This document shows, piece by piece, positions 14,131 through 55,234 of a DNA stretch of 64,000 nucleotides. The stretch lies in the NCBI RefSeq assembly GCF_014486675.1, contig NZ_JACTAC010000006.1:1-64000 (forward strand). Reading direction: 5' to 3'. The stretch's first letter is position 1. The number at the start of each line of letters is the position of its first letter. The notes beneath the pieces are model-generated. The model worked only from the letters and a program-made list of their open reading frames with translations. It did not search any database and was not told where the DNA came from. This DNA comes from Flavobacterium macrobrachii (GTDB lineage: Bacteria; Bacteroidota; Bacteroidia; Flavobacteriales; Flavobacteriaceae). The position numbers were made by a program, and so were the translations under genes.

Positions 14131-14196
14131 AGCCATTATCCTGCTTTTCACTCTATCTTTTTTTTACAAAAAAAGGATGCCGTTTCAATCAGGGCT
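14131..14196 (+). repeat. dispersed hairpin repeat, copy 1
   Basis: The element runs from AGCCATTATCCTGC to ATCAGGGCT, with a T-run/A-run hairpin (TTTTTTTTACAAAAAAA) at its centre. It aligns with the element at 19424-19506: an AGC(T/C)A-TCC(C/T)GCT start, CAATC or CTATC before the T-run, GGAT after the A-run, and ATC(G/A)GGGCT at the end. It lies between uvrC and the patatin signal peptide. Confidence 0.7.
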
Positions 14197-16468
14197 GGTT
14201 AGCATTCGTCTTTTGAAAAATTCAATTTCCATAACTCGAAACCCGAAACCCGCACCTCGCAACTCGCAACTCGCAATTTTTTTAATAATAACTTCCGCCT
14301 TGCTTCTTCCATCTTCCATCTTTTCACAAGACACAATTCCACGAAAAAAAATCGGATTAGTACTTTCTGGCGGCGGCGCAAAAGGATTTGCACACATTGG
14401 CGTTCTAAAAGTTTTGGAGCAAGCAGGCGTAAAAATAGATTACATTGGCGGAACAAGTATGGGCGCAGTTGTTGGCGGATTATATGCTTCAGGCTATAGC
14501 GCAACCCAAATAGATTCTATTTTCCACAACACCAATTTTGATGAATTGCTTCAAGACTACATTCCGCGTTCGTCCAAAAGTTTTTATGAAAAACTAAACG
14601 ACGAAAAATATGCCATTTCTTTGCCGTTCAACAAATTCAAAATTGGAATTCCAGTAGCACTTTCAAAAGGAATGTACAACTATAATATGCTAGCAAAACT
14701 AACCCATAATGTTAGACATATTCGAAACTTCAACCAATTACCTATTCCATTTATTTGTGTCGCTACCGATATTGAAACTGGTAAAGAAGTATTGCTTCGT
14801 AAAGGTTACCTTGCACAAGCCATGATGGCAAGTTCTGCATTTCCATCTTTGTTTTCACCTGTAGAAATCGATGGAAAAATACTTATCGATGGTGGCGTTA
14901 CCAATAATTATCCAGCAGAAGAGCTTCGTAAAATGGGCGCAGAAATAATCATTGGTGTTGATGTTCAAGACGATTTAAAAGACAGAGAATCGCTAAAAGA
15001 TGCCACTCGAATTTTGGTTCAAATCACCAATTTAGAGATGATTAACAAGATGAAAGAAAAAACCAAAATCACCGATATCTACATTAAACCGGATATTTCA
15101 AACTATGGTGTAATTTCATTTGACGAAGGAAAAGAAATCATCAAAAAAGGCGAAGAAGCTGCATTTGCAGTTTATGACCAAATAAAAAAACTGGGTACAG
15201 AAAATGAAGCTCAACATTTAGAAAAAGTAGATGAATGTCTCGATGTTCAAGGAATAACAATTTCAAAAATGGACAATTATACTCGCTCATATGTTGTTGG
15301 AAAACTTCGTTTTAAAGCTCCAAAAGAAATCAATTATGACGATTTAAAAACGGGTATTAACAACTTAAACGCTACTCAAAACTTTAGCCGAATTAGCTAT
15401 TCATTGGAACCAAAAGACAATGGCGACGAACTAAAAATCAATTTATCTGAAAATGAAAATAAAACCTTACTCAAATTTGGTTTGCATTATGACGGATTAT
15501 ACAAAAGTGCTATTTTGGTTAATGTAACTCATAAAAAATCAGTATTTAAAAACGATGTTTTATCGATAGATTTAGCACTTGGCGATAATATTCGATATAA
15601 TCTTGATTACTACATAGACAATGGTTTTTACTGGAGTTTTGGAATAAAATCACGATTTAATAAATTCAATCGAAACGTCAAAACCGATTTCAACGACGGA
15701 GCATTATTTGAACAAACAGGACTAAATTCGCTAAATATGGATTTTTCTGACTTGACCAATCAAATCTATGTTCAAAGTGTTTTTATTCAAAAATACTTGA
15801 TTGGCGCAGGTTTAGAACACAAATATCTTAGAATTGAAACCGAAAATTTAGATGATACCGATCGAATTTTTGAAAACAGCACCTACATTAGTGCATTTGG
15901 ATATTTAAAATACGACTCCTTTGACAACCGATATTTTCCAAAAAATGGGTTACTTTTTTCGGGAGATATTCAAACTTTTCTTTATTCGTCTGATTATACA
16001 AAAGAATTTAAGCGATTTTCAATTGCAAAAGGTGAAATTGGTTTTGCCAAAAACTTTGCCAAAAAATGGACTTTAAAAATTCAATCAGAAGTTGGATTTA
16101 AAATTGGCAACGAAAGTGTGGATTTCTTCGACTTTGTTCTTGGCGGTTATGGAAATTTAACAATTAATAATTTCAAACATTTTTTTGGCTATGATTTTTT
16201 GAGTATTTCTGCCGATAGCTACATAAAATCATGTTTTACAGTTGATTATGAAATATACAAACGCAATCATTTCAACTTTTCTGCCAATTATGCCAATTTA
16301 GAAAACAATCTTTTTGAAACAGGAAATTGGTTTTCAAGACCTAAATTTAGCGGATATGCTATTGGATATGGCTACGAATCAGTGGTAGGTCCAATCGAAA
16401 TAAAATATACTTGGTCGCCTGAATTACCCAAAGGCTACACCATGATTAACGTTGGTTTTTGGTTTTAA
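14177..16468 (+). CDS. patatin-like phospholipase with C-terminal outer-membrane barrel
   Basis: Two-part protein of about 763 residues from this start. The patatin domain has the oxyanion loop SGGGAKGFAHIG, nucleophile motif GTSMG (Ser139 counted from an upstream ATG at 14042) and catalytic DGG in LIDGGVTNNYP. The C-terminal half is an Omp85/BamA-like barrel ending in MINVGFWF with a terminal aromatic residue. This is the layout of PlpD-type secreted lipases (type Vd secretion). The start is unclear: ATGs at 14042 (inside uvrC), 14111 and 14177 are in frame, and the last two lie in or beside repeats. The signal peptide core (LAIFLIITSALLLPSSIFSQ) has no close Met. Start 14177 gives the most plausible signal peptide, with an unusually long n-region. 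Confidence 0.88.
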   Translation: MPFQSGLVSIRLLKNSISITRNPKPAPRNSQLAIFLIITSALLLPSSIFSQDTIPRKKIGLVLSGGGAKGFAHIGVLKVLEQAGVKIDYIGGTSMGAVVGGLYASGYSATQIDSIFHNTNFDELLQDYIPRSSKSFYEKLNDEKYAISLPFNKFKIGIPVALSKGMYNYNMLAKLTHNVRHIRNFNQLPIPFICVATDIETGKEVLLRKGYLAQAMMASSAFPSLFSPVEIDGKILIDGGVTNNYPAEELRKMGAEIIIGVDVQDDLKDRESLKDATRILVQITNLEMINKMKEKTKITDIYIKPDISNYGVISFDEGKEIIKKGEEAAFAVYDQIKKLGTENEAQHLEKVDECLDVQGITISKMDNYTRSYVVGKLRFKAPKEINYDDLKTGINNLNATQNFSRISYSLEPKDNGDELKINLSENENKTLLKFGLHYDGLYKSAILVNVTHKKSVFKNDVLSIDLALGDNIRYNLDYYIDNGFYWSFGIKSRFNKFNRNVKTDFNDGALFEQTGLNSLNMDFSDLTNQIYVQSVFIQKYLIGAGLEHKYLRIETENLDDTDRIFENSTYISAFGYLKYDSFDNRYFPKNGLLFSGDIQTFLYSSDYTKEFKRFSIAKGEIGFAKNFAKKWTLKIQSEVGFKIGNESVDFFDFVLGGYGNLTINNFKHFFGYDFLSISADSYIKSCFTVDYEIYKRNHFNFSANYANLENNLFETGNWFSRPKFSGYAIGYGYESVVGPIEIKYTWSPELPKGYTMINVGFWF
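14233..14274 (+). repeat. heptamer tandem repeat (AACTCGC type, 6 units)
   Basis: Six consecutive 7-bp units: AACTCGA, AACCCGA, AACCCGC, ACCTCGC, AACTCGC, AACTCGC. The 42-bp array keeps frame and is translated as part of the n-region of the patatin-barrel signal peptide. Confidence 0.88.
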
Positions 16469-19423: not shown

Positions 19424-19506
19424 AGGAGCTAATCCCGCTATCCGTTGCAATCTTTTGTTTTTTTTAAAAGAAAAAAACAAAAGGATTTCCACTACTATCG
19501 GGGCTA
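19424..19506 (+). repeat. dispersed hairpin repeat, copy 2
   Basis: The element begins AGGAGCTAATCCCGCTATCC and ends TATCGGGGCTA. Its centre is a perfect 13-bp hairpin, CTTTTGTTTTTTT (19452-19464) with AAAAAAACAAAAG (19471-19483), and outer AGC/CCCG segments can pair with CGGGGCT. It resembles a roughly 100-bp hairpin repeat I associate with Flavobacterium genomes and aligns with the copy at 14131-14196. It separates hmgA from hppD. Confidence 0.75.
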
Positions 19507-19572
19507 AAAATTCAGTAAACAACAAACTTTTGGTTAAAAAAATATCCTTTTTAACCAAACAAAAAAAACACA

Positions 19573-31711: not shown

Positions 31712-33286
31712 ATGAAAAAAATTACTTTACTTATTCTATTCATTTCATCGGCTGTATTTTCTCAGACGGAACAAACCCTAAACTATGCTTGGGCTTTTCC
31801 AACCAAAGTAAACAACAAAATTGTTTTTGTAAGAACGGAACCCAACTTTGGAACCGAACTTTGGGTAAGCGATGGAACCGAAGCAGGAACAACCATCTTA
31901 ATGGACATCATTCCTGGAAACGCAAGTAGTAATCCATTCAATCTAACAGCAATTGACAATGTTATTTATTTTACTGTTAATGATCATCAAATATGGCGAA
32001 CTGATGGAACAACTGTTGGAACTTACAATATGATAACTAACCCAAACATAACCAATGTAGGCGGATTTATAAAAGCTAATAATTTCATCTTTTTTCATGA
32101 AGGAACAACAGGTTCTAGTGGTATTCGAAATATTTGGCGAATGCAAACCACACCAAATTCAGCTGTAGAAGTACTGCAAGCAACAAACCAATCATTTCAA
32201 AATGTAGATAGAGGATTTTATAATCTTGATGATGATAATTTGCTTATTAATGTTAGAACTTTAGCGCATGGTTGGTCAATTTGGAGAACAAATGGCTTGG
32301 TAAGTGAACTTGTAAAAGATTTAAACCCAAACAATGTTTCAGACAGAGTTCAAATGAGTAGCGCAAAAAAAATTGACAATACCATTTATTTTTCTGGTTT
32401 CACAACTGAATATGGACACGAACCATTTACAACAAATGGAACAACTCCAGAAACTATCTTACTAAAAGATATTTTTGTTAGCAATAATTATTTTGACACT
32501 TCAGGAGCAACCAATTTTTATAAAGTTGGCAACATTATTTATTTTACAGCAAAAGACAACACTAATGGTTTAGAGCTTTGGAAAACCAATGGAACTGCTG
32601 CTGGAACCGAAATGATAAAAGATATTACTCCAGGAAATAATTCAAACAGTTGGTCGCCAAATTCATTTATTGAGTTCAACAATCAACTCTATTTTTCCAA
32701 AAATGATGAAATAAATGGTTCTCAAATCTGGAAATCAGACGGTACTAATGATGGAACAGTAATGGTAACTTCCAATCCACAAACCACATTTTATGGAAAC
32801 CAATTAATTAAGTATAATAACTTACTATTCTACAGCGCATACAATCAAACAAATGGTGTCGAATTGTGGATGCTCGATTCAGATGATAATGCAACATTAG
32901 TTCAAGATATTACTCCTGGAAATGAAGGTTCAGATCCAGGTGACTTCATTGAATTAAATGGATATTTATATTTTATGGCGTCAACTAACGGAAATGCAAC
33001 AGGGAGAAAAATATTTAGATTAAATTCACAAACGTTAGAAACAAACAGTTCAAAAAACAATACGATTTCAGTGTATCCAAACCCAGCAAATGGAATTTTT
33101 CACATTGAAAACACAGTTGAAAATCAATTAGAATATACAGTTTATGACCAAAATGGAAAAAAAATAAATCATTCTCAAAATGGAGATTCTATCGACATCA
33201 CTAACCAAGCATCGGGAATTTACTTTTTAAAGATTTTCAATGCAACTCAAAATATAGTATCAATAAAAAAAATAATCAAACACTAA
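31712..33286 (+). CDS. T9SS-exported protein with ELWxSDGT repeats
   Basis: Protein of 524 residues. A signal peptide (MKKITLLILFISSAVFSQ) precedes repeated ELWxSDGT-type units: ELWVSDGTEAGTTILMDI, QIWRTDGTTVGTYN, LELWKTNGTAAGTEMIKDI, QIWKSDGTNDGTVMV and VELWMLDSDDNATLV. They probably form a propeller-like fold. The C-terminal 75 residues or so form a type A sorting domain beginning SVYPNPANGIFHIEN and ending SIKKIIKH. The family is exported across the outer membrane by the type IX system and anchored or released. Own terminator downstream; single-gene unit. Its ligand or substrate cannot be told. Confidence 0.9.
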   Translation: MKKITLLILFISSAVFSQTEQTLNYAWAFPTKVNNKIVFVRTEPNFGTELWVSDGTEAGTTILMDIIPGNASSNPFNLTAIDNVIYFTVNDHQIWRTDGTTVGTYNMITNPNITNVGGFIKANNFIFFHEGTTGSSGIRNIWRMQTTPNSAVEVLQATNQSFQNVDRGFYNLDDDNLLINVRTLAHGWSIWRTNGLVSELVKDLNPNNVSDRVQMSSAKKIDNTIYFSGFTTEYGHEPFTTNGTTPETILLKDIFVSNNYFDTSGATNFYKVGNIIYFTAKDNTNGLELWKTNGTAAGTEMIKDITPGNNSNSWSPNSFIEFNNQLYFSKNDEINGSQIWKSDGTNDGTVMVTSNPQTTFYGNQLIKYNNLLFYSAYNQTNGVELWMLDSDDNATLVQDITPGNEGSDPGDFIELNGYLYFMASTNGNATGRKIFRLNSQTLETNSSKNNTISVYPNPANGIFHIENTVENQLEYTVYDQNGKKINHSQNGDSIDITNQASGIYFLKIFNATQNIVSIKKIIKH

Positions 33287-52305: not shown

Positions 52306-54204
52306 ATGAGCGACGCAATTAAACACGAATGTGGCATTGCACTACTTCGATTAAAGAAACCATTAGAATTCTACAAAGAAAAATATGGTTCGGCTTTCTA
52401 TGGCATACAAAAAATGTATTTACTCATGGAAAAGCAGCACAACCGTGGTCAAGATGGCGCTGGTTTTGCTTCTATAAAATTTGATGTTGAACCAGGCGAA
52501 AGATACATCAGTCGAGTTCGTTCTAACAAATCACAACCCATTCAAGATATTTTTGCCCAAATAAACGAACGCATTAACGAAGAACTAACTTTACATCCCG
52601 AATACAACGACAATGTAAAACTTCAAAAAGACAACATTCCTTATATTGGCGAGTTATTTCTTGGACACGTTCGTTATGGAACTTTTGGCAAAAATAATAT
52701 TGAAAGTGTTCATCCATTTCTGCGTCAAAATAATTGGATGCACCGAAACCTCATCGTAGCTGGGAATTTTAATATGACCAACGTAACGGAGCTTTTCAAT
52801 AGTTTAGTAGAATTAGGTCAACATCCAAAAGAAATGGCCGATACCGTTACCGTAATGGAAAAAATTGGACATTTCCTTGACGACGAAGTAACCGATTTGT
52901 ACCAAGAATGCAAAAACAAGGGTTTATCTAAGAGAGACGCTTCGCCAGTTATTGCCGAAAAACTCAATCTAGTTCGAGTATTAAAACGTGCTTCTCGCGG
53001 TTGGGATGGCGGTTATGCTATGGCAGGATTGTTAGGTCATGGCGACTCATTTGTGCTTCGTGATCCAGCAGGAATTCGACCAACCTATTTTTATGAAGAT
53101 GACGAAGTAGTTGTTGTAGCTTCAGAAAGACCAGTTATTCAAACCGTTTTTAATGTCTCTTTTGAAAAAATTCAAGAATTAAAACCTGGAAATGCGTTAA
53201 TCATCAAGAAAAATGCGACAGTTTCCGAAGAAGAAATCAATACGCCAACAGAAAAAAAAGCATGCTCATTTGAACGAATTTATTTTTCTCGCGGTAGCGA
53301 TGCTGAAATTTATCAGGAACGAAAGAAACTAGGAAAACTAATTCTTCCAGCGGTTCTCCATGCTATTGAAAGCGATACGGATAATACTGTTTTCTCATAC
53401 ATTCCAAATACAGCCGAAACTTCTTTCTACGGAATGATTGAAGCTGCCAATGATTTTCTAAACCAAAGAAAAAACAAATTCATTTTGGATAACCGAAAAA
53501 CATTAACCAAAGAAAAATTAGAAGAAATTCTTTCAGTAAAAATAAGAACCGAAAAAATAGCCATCAAAGATGCAAAATTGAGAACTTTTATTACCGATGA
53601 TGCCAACCGTGATGATTTAGTTGCTCATGTTTATGACGTTACATATGGTGTAATTCAACCGTCAGATAATTTGGTTATCATTGATGATAGTATCGTTCGT
53701 GGAACTACGTTAAAGAAAAGTATCCTTAGAATGATGGACAGATTAAATCCAAAACGTATCGTAGTCGTTTCTTCTGCACCACAAATTCGTTATCCTGATT
53801 GTTATGGTATTGATATGTCAACCTTGGAAGGTTTTATTGCTTTTCAGGCAGCAATCGAGCTTTTAAAGGAGCGAAAAATGACCAACATTATCGATGATGT
53901 TTACAAAAAATGTAAATCACAAGAAAATCTGAAAGATACAGAAGTAATTAACTTCGTCAAGGAAATATACAACCCTTTCACCGATACCGAAATTTCGAAT
54001 AAAATTGCCGAAATGCTTCATCCAGATGATATTAAAGCTGAAGTAAAAATTATCTTCCAAACAGTTGATGATTTGCATCTAGCATGTCCTAAGAATTTAG
54101 GCGATTGGTACTTTACTGGAAATTATCCTACATCTGGTGGAAACCGAGTTGTTAACAAGGCTTTTATTAATTTTTATGAAGGCAAAAACACTCGTTCCTA
54201 TTAA
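52306..54204 (+). CDS. long amidophosphoribosyltransferase (PurF-like)
   Basis: Protein of 632 residues, much longer than typical PurF (about 470-505). The class II glutamine amidotransferase domain begins at Cys9 after a short propeptide (IKHECGIALLRL), with HNRGQDGAGFASI, GHVRYGTFGKNN and a region LVRVLKRASRGWDGGYAMAG. The phosphoribosyltransferase domain has the PRPP loop VIIDDSIVRGTTL (Asp460, Asp461). Extra sequence lies between (about 180-230) and at the C-terminus (about 560-632, including CPKNLGDWYFTGNYPTSGG). PurF makes phosphoribosylamine from PRPP and glutamine. Whether this long form is the main enzyme or a paralogue cannot be told from this window. Confidence 0.85.
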   Translation: MSDAIKHECGIALLRLKKPLEFYKEKYGSAFYGIQKMYLLMEKQHNRGQDGAGFASIKFDVEPGERYISRVRSNKSQPIQDIFAQINERINEELTLHPEYNDNVKLQKDNIPYIGELFLGHVRYGTFGKNNIESVHPFLRQNNWMHRNLIVAGNFNMTNVTELFNSLVELGQHPKEMADTVTVMEKIGHFLDDEVTDLYQECKNKGLSKRDASPVIAEKLNLVRVLKRASRGWDGGYAMAGLLGHGDSFVLRDPAGIRPTYFYEDDEVVVVASERPVIQTVFNVSFEKIQELKPGNALIIKKNATVSEEEINTPTEKKACSFERIYFSRGSDAEIYQERKKLGKLILPAVLHAIESDTDNTVFSYIPNTAETSFYGMIEAANDFLNQRKNKFILDNRKTLTKEKLEEILSVKIRTEKIAIKDAKLRTFITDDANRDDLVAHVYDVTYGVIQPSDNLVIIDDSIVRGTTLKKSILRMMDRLNPKRIVVVSSAPQIRYPDCYGIDMSTLEGFIAFQAAIELLKERKMTNIIDDVYKKCKSQENLKDTEVINFVKEIYNPFTDTEISNKIAEMLHPDDIKAEVKIIFQTVDDLHLACPKNLGDWYFTGNYPTSGGNRVVNKAFINFYEGKNTRSY

Positions 54205-54282: not shown

Positions 54283-54290
54283 TATATTTG
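54283..54290 (+). promoter_or_regulatory. -7 promoter box of small RNA copy A
   Basis: TATATTTG, an exact TAnnTTTG match, with a TTTG 21 bp further upstream (54258-54261). The 5' hairpin of the RNA begins 4 nt after this box. Confidence 0.65.
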
Positions 54291-54294
54291 TTGA

Positions 54295-54370
54295 ACCATA
54301 GCATTAGTAGGTTAAGTTTATGGTAGATTTGGGGCAAAAAAGGAGAAAGTAAAATTTCTCCTTTTTTATT
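54295..54370 (+). ncRNA. small RNA candidate, copy A of a twin pair
   Basis: Short unit with its own promoter and terminator and no ORF. It begins with the stem ACCATA/TATGGT (54295-54300 with 54319-54324) whose loop carries GTAGGTTAAG. A single-stranded linker AGATTTGGGGCAAA (54325-54338) follows, then the terminator. The 32 nt at 54307-54338 are identical to copy B at 54500-54531. Length is about 75 nt. It sits between the amidotransferase and sod genes. No tRNA, 6S or riboswitch architecture is recognised. A relation to the Rfam Flavo-1 motif should be considered but I cannot confirm it. Confidence 0.72.
54339..54370 (+). terminator. terminator of small RNA copy A
   Basis: A 10-bp stem, AAAGGAGAAA with TTTCTCCTTT, a 6-nt loop GTAAAA and a T-run. 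Confidence 0.88.
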
Positions 54371-54472
54371 TTTTCACCCTTACAAAAAAACTAAATTCCA
54401 TGGTTTTTTATAATTTTTCCTATTTTTTTTTATTTTTTTCAAAAAATATGATGAAATTCAATAAGTTGTTAT

Positions 54473-54480
54473 TAGATTTG
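54473..54480 (+). promoter_or_regulatory. -7 promoter box of small RNA copy B
   Basis: TAGATTTG, an exact TAnnTTTG match. As in copy A, the 5' hairpin begins 4 nt downstream. Confidence 0.65.
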
Positions 54481-54484
54481 CCAT

Positions 54485-54562
54485 ACCATAGTATTTAGTG
54501 TAGGTTAAGTTTATGGTAGATTTGGGGCAAACAGGTGGAAGCAATTCCGCCTGTTTCATTTT
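54485..54562 (+). ncRNA. small RNA candidate, copy B of a twin pair
   Basis: Second copy, 190 bp from copy A. The stem ACCATA/TATGGT (54485-54490 with 54512-54517, extendable by one T-A pair) surrounds a 21-nt loop with GTAGGTTAAG. The same linker AGATTTGGGGCAAA (54518-54531) is followed by a terminator of unrelated sequence. The conserved core, stem and linker with divergent terminators and spacers argue for selection on the core, not recent duplication of a random segment. Length is about 78 nt. Confidence 0.74.
54530..54562 (+). terminator. terminator of small RNA copy B
   Basis: An 11-bp stem, AACAGGTGGAA with TTCCGCCTGTT (one T-G pair), closed by a GCAA tetraloop, then TTTCATTTT. Confidence 0.85.
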
Positions 54563-54625: not shown

Positions 54626-55234
54626 TTATTTTTCAGTAGCATATAACCTTGCAACTTCTGTCCAGTTAATTACATTAAAGAATGCTTCTATATAATCAGG
54701 ACGACGGTTTTGATAGTTTAGATAGTAAGCATGTTCCCAAACATCCATTCCTAAAATTGGAAAACCACCACAAGCCGTATCTGGCATTAATGGATTGTCT
54801 TGATTTGCTGTTGAACAAACTTCTAGTTTTCCACCTTTGTGAACACATAGCCAAGCCCAACCTGAACCAAAACGAGTTGCACCAGCTTTAGCAAACTGCG
54901 CTTTAAATTCGTCAAACGATTTGAAGTCTCTTTCAATCGCTTCCAATAATTCGCCTGTTGGTAATCCGCCACCGTTTGGTGCCATCACTCTCCAAAATAA
55001 ATTGTGATTGTAAAAACCACCACCATTATTTCTAACCGCAGCGTTTTTCATATCCAAATTGATTAAGATGTTTTCAATGGTTAATCCTTCCAAATCAGTT
55101 CCAGCAATCGCTGCATTTAGATTGGTTGTATAAGCATTATGATGTTTTGAATGATGAATTTCCATCGTTCTTGCATCAATATGTGGTTCTAATGCATCGT
55201 ATGCATAAGGTAATTGTGGTAATTCAAAAGCCAT
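54626..55234 (-). CDS. sod: superoxide dismutase, Mn/Fe family
   Basis: Enzyme of 202 residues that dismutates superoxide. Metal ligands: His27 ([11 protein letters not shown]), His77 (FYNHNLFW), Asp164 and His168 ([11 protein letters not shown]). Gln145 in ANQDNPL with Gly in GGGFYNH is the pattern usually seen in Mn-type enzymes, but a cambialistic form cannot be excluded. There is no signal peptide, so it is cytoplasmic. Own promoter and terminator. Confidence 0.95.

Follow-up and report, generated by a model that had tools for sequence, protein, structure and literature searches.

Two short units lying in tandem between purF and sodA in the window (the whole 64,000-nt stretch of Flavobacterium macrobrachii DNA that was analyzed) resemble small RNA (sRNA) genes. 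The reading that we favor, with a probability of about 0.8, is that they encode a multicopy trans-acting antisense sRNA that represses translation initiation, expression and the sign of the effect being inferred. The computations established the units themselves, their conservation, their complementarity to mRNAs, the position of this complementarity, its excess over controls, the co-occurrence of the sRNA with a CAP-domain lipoprotein gene, and one matched insertion. The unit coordinates were re-read by script from the window sequence, and the names purF and sodA rest on reading of the sequence and on tblastn of these proteins against other loci. The features are as follows.

52306-54204, forward strand: purF, upstream of both units
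54283-54290, forward strand: unit 1, -7 promoter box TATATTTG, fitting TAnnTTTG
54295-54373, forward strand: unit 1, predicted sRNA of ~75 nt; the start site near 54295 is inferred and unmapped
54295-54324, forward strand: unit 1, 5' hairpin with GTAGGTTAAG in its loop (from fold and alignment)
54295-54300 and 54319-54324, forward strand: unit 1, stem arms ACCATA and TATGGT, beginning after a 4-nt gap from the box
54307-54338, forward strand: unit 1, 32-nt core, the reverse complement of which matches target start regions in relatives
54325-54338, forward strand: unit 1, G-rich single-stranded linker AGATTTGGGGCAAA, putative seed (mean unpaired probability 0.78)
54336-54373, forward strand: unit 1, intrinsic terminator, hairpin and T-run (from fold)
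54473-54480, forward strand: unit 2, -7 promoter box TAGATTTG (from sequence)
54485-54562, forward strand: unit 2, predicted sRNA; start site near 54485 inferred
54485-54517, forward strand: unit 2, 5' hairpin (from fold), its loop end longer than in unit 1
54485-54490 and 54512-54517, forward strand: unit 2, stem arms ACCATA and TATGGT, again after a 4-nt gap
54500-54531, forward strand: unit 2, 32-nt core, identical to that of unit 1
54518-54531, forward strand: unit 2, G-rich linker, putative seed (mean unpaired probability 0.73)
54529-54562, forward strand: unit 2, intrinsic terminator (from fold)
54626-55234, reverse strand: sodA, convergent with the units

TAnnTTTG is the -7 consensus of Bacteroidota sigma-A promoters (PMC9723704). 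The re-reading and the folds confirmed the architecture of box, 4-nt gap, hairpin, linker and terminator that an earlier note had described for both units, and also the identity of the two 32-nt cores. Each unit thus has its own promoter and intrinsic terminator, as expected of a trans-acting sRNA gene, judging from sequence and predicted fold alone. Fold stability gave z = -3.40 for unit 1 and -4.45 for unit 2, none of 200 shuffles being equally stable. When the 3.45-Mb genome was searched with the 32-nt core at up to three mismatches, the only two matches were the units, and the reversed-pattern control gave none. The 14-nt linker alone (up to two mismatches) also had two matches, a number reached by 22 of 100 shuffles. 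By this sequence evidence, it is the 32-nt identity together with its conservation in other genomes that is remarkable, and not the linker on its own. The mean unpaired probability for linker and loop was 0.78 and 0.61 in unit 1, and 0.73 and 0.51 in unit 2; since both regions are largely unpaired in the predicted fold, they appear fit for a two-point contact. The identical cores suggest that the two putative sRNAs share their targets.

The earlier note had proposed a search for the core in relatives and a covariance model, and both were run. The 32-mer was found at up to three mismatches in 88 of 121 Flavobacterium genomes, and the reversed controls had no match in the 121 rows shown. This search misses diverged copies, as four genomes (G002, G012, G032, and G039) do carry one. 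A covariance model was built from 59 units, those of the window included, and was run on 299 Flavobacteriaceae genomes only. At E ≤ 1e-3, it matched 257 of the 299 genomes and 176 of 203 genera, with one to seven matches per genome; unit 1 was matched at 54294-54369 with E 7.6e-21, the window units being among the training rows. The 17-mer core TGGTAGATTTGGGGCAA occurred in at least 118 stretches in named genomes. Among the 118 stretches listed, 103 adjoin purF and/or sod (75 both genes, 19 purF only, and 9 sod only) and 15 lie elsewhere. The latter comprise six loci of a small-protein gene (see below), two chance matches without the appearance of a unit (L095 and L126), and, among the matches listed, seven full units found apart from purF and sod or at the end of a contig or locus (L033, L039, L072, L079, L091, L110, and L142). 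In one genome (G126), two units are 18 kb apart.

The promoter boxes, the terminators, and the position next to purF and sod are conserved across relatives, and the core is nearly unchanged while the terminators vary. In the 59-unit alignment, the terminator stem covaries and the 5' stem is almost invariant, with a single change on both sides (C-G to U-A) in the 59 rows. The covariation therefore supports the terminator, and the signal in the core is mainly one of primary-sequence conservation. The occurrence in 257 of 299 genomes, the frozen core beside varying terminators, and the conserved boxes and location support the proposal that selection acts on an RNA and that the two units are putative sibling sRNA genes. 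A further sRNA-like unit, TAGTTTTAGTTAGTTTAGTTAATTATTGGGGAAAA followed by a terminator, was seen at L198 and L199; its build is alike and its sequence different.

With Rfam 15 at gathering thresholds, no family was found at the sRNA locus, and at E ≤ 10 the best sub-threshold match there scored 22.4 bits against a cut-off of 70. The suggestion that the RNA might be Flavo-1 was wrong for this locus, as RF01705 gave no match to it even at E ≤ 10, although Flavo-1 is likewise a short structured RNA of Flavobacteriaceae. The open-licence PMC literature, as far as it was available, contained no paper on this RNA; prior detection, for example among Rfp1-89 (PMC9723704) or the F. columnare candidates (PMC5395568), is not excluded. 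The only Rfam matches of the window are two Flavo-1 RNAs that lie away from the locus and are unrelated to the finding:

14133-14200, reverse strand: Flavo-1 RNA (RF01705, 63.3 bits)
19427-19509, reverse strand: Flavo-1 RNA (RF01705, 82.7 bits)

Target sites were searched for with R3, a sequence profile made from the reverse complement of 14 sRNA cores; no target sequence entered it. The exact bipartite pattern AGCCCCAA-gap-AACTTAACCTA, which R3 replaced, had occurred in none of 150 genomes because the target sites start with TTTGCCCC. In 40 Flavobacterium genomes, the sRNA loci themselves ranked first (31 genomes), and 16 of the 19 non-sRNA sites at E ≤ 0.02 lay at the start of one gene family. 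These 16 sites begin 37-42 nt before the ATG and end within 4 nt of it (-4 to +4), a typical leader being TTTGCCCCACAATCTACTTTAAACTTAAACTACTA-ATG. The gene encodes a CAP-domain lipoprotein of ~167 amino acids (PF00188 in all four members tested), and an alignment of the 16 proteins has 48 invariant columns. The three exceptions were the start of a 71-aa ORF (G040), a non-coding site (G047), and a coding site in a genome without the sRNA (G024). Sites away from start codons (G047:C33, non-coding; G024:C29, coding; and one in G033) are not claimed as targets.

As an independent check, CAP genes were chosen by a protein profile, and those found by R3 were kept apart. The profile matched 72 of 101 Flavobacterium genomes, and the start could be assigned in 88 of 90 CAP loci, paralogues of one genome being counted separately. 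The duplex energy between each start region and the sRNA core was scored against dinucleotide shuffles with a cut-off of z < -3. This was passed by 12 of 12 R3-found CAP genes, as expected, by 52 of 61 close CAP homologues (E < 1e-70) outside the R3 set, by 2 of 15 remote homologues (E ≥ 1e-70), and by none of 101 sodA start regions from sRNA loci, which served as the control. The remaining nine of the 61 close CAP genes have no complementary site. Among the 40 Flavobacterium genomes, the CAP gene is present in 28 of the 31 that bear the sRNA and in none of the nine that lack it, without correction for phylogeny. The results support the proposal that the G-rich linker is a seed: the start codons of relatives carry a bipartite complementary site, of which one end matches this linker and the other the hairpin loop GTAGGTTAAG, which had not been named as a seed.

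Six of the 118 stretches listed looked at first like short arrays of the core, and all six genomes also carry an ordinary sRNA. The opposite strand of these stretches proved to be an mRNA with a leader containing GATTTGCCCCAAATCTACCATGAATTTAACTT, an ATG, and the start of a coding region, in which the codons for N-L-P-E-P-T match the complement of the sRNA a second time. Examination of 36 loci yielded the encoded small protein, ~41 aa long and unannotated, from 32 of them, with 31 distinct sequences. It ends in KK[IVL]FML in most rows, its conserved pattern being NLPE...KKIFML (loci include L216-L245, L049, L080, L117, L119, and L133), and all indels in the alignment are whole codons. None of the three members tested had a match in Pfam or NCBIfam. 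The protein is predicted to form a single helix (residues 11-40, mean pLDDT 78.7), and in the loci read its gene adjoins oppDF-like ABC-transporter and 3-oxoacid CoA-transferase-like genes. R2, a sequence model of the small protein, had matches at E ≤ 1.2e-8 in 77 of 299 genomes by a manual count, each of them sRNA-positive by the covariance model; its weaker matches (191 of 299 genomes at E ≤ 1e-3) were left out of the count, and among them is the sRNA's own antisense strand. The start regions of 31 of 32 small-protein genes had z < -3 with the sRNA core, a statistic that is partly circular because the loci were first noticed through that complementarity. The small-protein profile gave no match in 150 Flavobacterium genomes, without a positive control.

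Applied to 39 other genera at E ≤ 0.05, R3 found 37 non-sRNA sites, of which 23 could be assigned to the small-protein locus from their coordinates and from reading, and 14 lie elsewhere. Only two of these 14, L360 and L365, abut a start codon. The gene that starts at L365 again encodes a CAP lipoprotein (PF00188), and that at L360 a different secreted protein; a site found earlier, L200, is the start of a third. Sites in 3'UTRs or non-coding DNA (L356-L359, L361, L362, and L366) and those in or opposite genes (L368 and L369) are not claimed as targets. At L356 and L362, the complementary 3'UTR site lies right before a terminator-like hairpin. L357 (G149:C1:1455538 and 1455845) consists of two tandem non-coding stretches, each with a -7-like box, a complementary site, and a terminator; on this build they are candidate sponge RNAs. 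L358, L359, and L361 (in G126 and G148) are copies of a repeated non-coding element in which GCCCCAAATCTACCATAACTTACC precedes a long hairpin with GGGCGC at its end.

One genome contains matched changes in the sRNA and a putative target. Of the two sRNA copies of Aequorivita aquimaris (L088 = G144, same contig), one, GGTAAGATTTGGGG, has an extra A that the second lacks; the leader of a 29-aa small-protein-like ORF in this genome, CCCAAATCTTACC, has an extra T. Pairing with this leader was -41.3 kcal/mol for the sRNA with the insertion vs -36.6 for that without it, and with a Gaetbulibacter target the order was reversed (-46.7 vs -50.5). A whole clade (G149, G136, G121, G130, G143, and G139) shares the insertion, and the sites of G149 do not discriminate between the two forms (-41.7 vs -41.2). 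The matched insertion is one clear case in one genome and not a statistic.

Conserved complementarity to mRNAs encoded elsewhere, beyond the controls, was found in relatives and not in the window's own genome. The CAP protein profile had no match there at E ≤ 1e-15, and two other sRNA-bearing genomes (G032 and G039) likewise had none; the small-protein profile, again without a positive control, had no match in the window's genome either. Thus, the frozen core must serve something else in this genome. The best of its weak candidates is a 7TMR-DISM sensor gene (PF07695/PF07696; L371, G000:C172:2763-2776), in which codons 4-9, just past the start codon, contain a 14-nt complement of the sRNA. The duplex had -27.8 kcal/mol with z between -3.1 and -3.6, but the site was picked among a few weak matches and its E of 0.57 makes chance a fair explanation. 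A short core pattern (up to three mismatches) had 41 matches in this genome vs 18 for the reversed control, and those inspected lay inside genes. The complement of the loop, at the same stringency, had six matches, two of them the units, against ten in the control, so that this pattern yields no target in the genome. Elsewhere in it, on the other strand of a downstream stretch at L263/L213 (G000:C152, ~31759-31788), AATAGGTTAAGTTTAAGTTAGGTTTTGGGG stands before a terminator-like hairpin, in an sRNA-like order of elements.

We propose that each unit would be an independent gene of a short (~75 nt) non-coding RNA in which the loop GTAGGTTAAG and the linker AGATTTGGGGCAAA form one interrupted antisense seed of ~35 nt, followed by the terminator. 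The sRNA would mask the start region of its target and keep the ribosome off, and the tandem duplication would raise the dose; transcription, pairing in the cell, and dose as the reason for the copies are all inferred. Since binding at the start region would keep the ribosome off, the RNA most likely represses translation. This sign is itself an inference from the position of the sites, from the lack of Shine-Dalgarno-led initiation in flavobacteria (PMC9723704), and from the behavior of FopS in Bacteroides.

The possibility exists that pairing with the same target mRNAs has the opposite effect and activates or stabilizes them, by opening a structure or protecting the 5' end. When Rfp18, a candidate base-pairing sRNA from F. 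psychrophilum, was deleted, the levels of two target mRNAs fell (PMC9723704), which would agree with such a role; the CAP sites, however, abut or overlap the start codon, and FopS represses when it pairs at start codons in Bacteroides (PMC11697453), so we consider activation unlikely. It is also conceivable that the sRNA is the antitoxin of a type I toxin-antitoxin pair with the helical ~41-aa protein as the toxin. A long antisense match does run across the start codon of a tiny, predicted single-helix protein, and all 77 counted genomes with the small-protein model are sRNA-positive, but the two genes are not neighbors, and in many genomes the sRNA occurs without a match to the small protein; those of Flavobacterium are among them, with their sites at the CAP lipoprotein. 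The small gene also stands at one place in the loci read, more like a vertically kept gene, and we regard this pairing of roles as very unlikely.

A decoy similar to CsrB, in which the tandem copies titrate a protein that recognizes the frozen core, is a highly improbable reading. It would account for the long invariant primary sequence, the several copies, and a GGG in a short potential loop, and some loci did look like arrays of the motif. These arrays turned out to be the opposite strand of the small-protein mRNA with its complementary sites, so that for those loci neither a CsrB-like nor a pure-sponge reading was retained, and it is the complement, not the motif itself, that recurs at start codons. 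Least probable is a cis element, which could serve purF as a regulated terminator or another 3' element, or act on sodA as a leader. The position after purF is conserved, but a -7 box and a terminator belong to each unit separately, sodA is read from the other strand, and neither the seven full units that lie apart from the two genes or at contig ends nor the widely spaced units of G126 fit it.

The proposed antisense repression has counterparts elsewhere. FopS/GibS of Bacteroides thetaiotaomicron is also a multicopy Bacteroidota sRNA with sigma-ABfr-type promoters that pairs near start codons of outer-membrane-protein mRNAs, and it has been shown to repress translation (PMC11697453). FopS has 14 dispersed copies, a seed at its 5' end, and SusC-like transporter targets (PMC11697453), whereas here the copies are mostly in tandem at one locus, the putative seed of ~35 nt comprises hairpin loop and linker, and the predicted targets are the CAP lipoprotein and the small protein. 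The Rfp RNAs of F. psychrophilum, Rfp18 among them, are likewise flavobacterial, conserved in the genus, and thought to pair with mRNAs; in Rfp18 pairing is placed in a third stem-loop, while the unit here has two, and its predicted targets are metalloproteases and an adhesin (PMC9723704). LhrC of Listeria has several near-identical copies, its motifs are redundant, and it hinders translation of the surface-protein mRNA to which it binds, but its motifs are CU-rich, its host is Gram-positive, and its sequence is unrelated (PMC4132741). If our reading is true, most Flavobacteriaceae share a single core sRNA whose targets are readable; few sRNAs have been characterized in this group, which lacks Shine-Dalgarno-led initiation. 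The finding would then provide an sRNA-mRNA pair open to direct testing, a new family of small proteins, and a regulon of conserved CAP lipoproteins with no known function, and would offer a clean system for studying start-codon occlusion in Bacteroidota and why tandem copies persist.

The targets may also be connected at the level of transcription. The motif TTTCATCGAT (up to two mismatches) lies upstream of all 16 R3-found CAP leaders (L246-L261) and of 30 of 32 small-protein leaders, as compared with 215 of 2000 random windows, and a common transcription regulator of the two genes is possible on this pattern. The sRNA promoters do not share the motif (19 of 239 units vs 215 of 2000 random windows). 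We tentatively suggest, as a doubtful extension, an ancient flavobacterial circuit in which a multicopy sRNA with a loop-plus-linker seed controls a few envelope genes sharing TTTCATCGAT and its second half ~21 bp further along, and in which, in some lineages, target mRNAs with two to three sites (one of them in the coding sequence) or the non-coding L357 RNAs would act as sponges that set the level of free sRNA. In the CAP set, the second half-site, TTTAACGAT, is found 20-21 bp past TTTCATCGAT, a spacing that we take to recall the sites of LytTR-type regulators.
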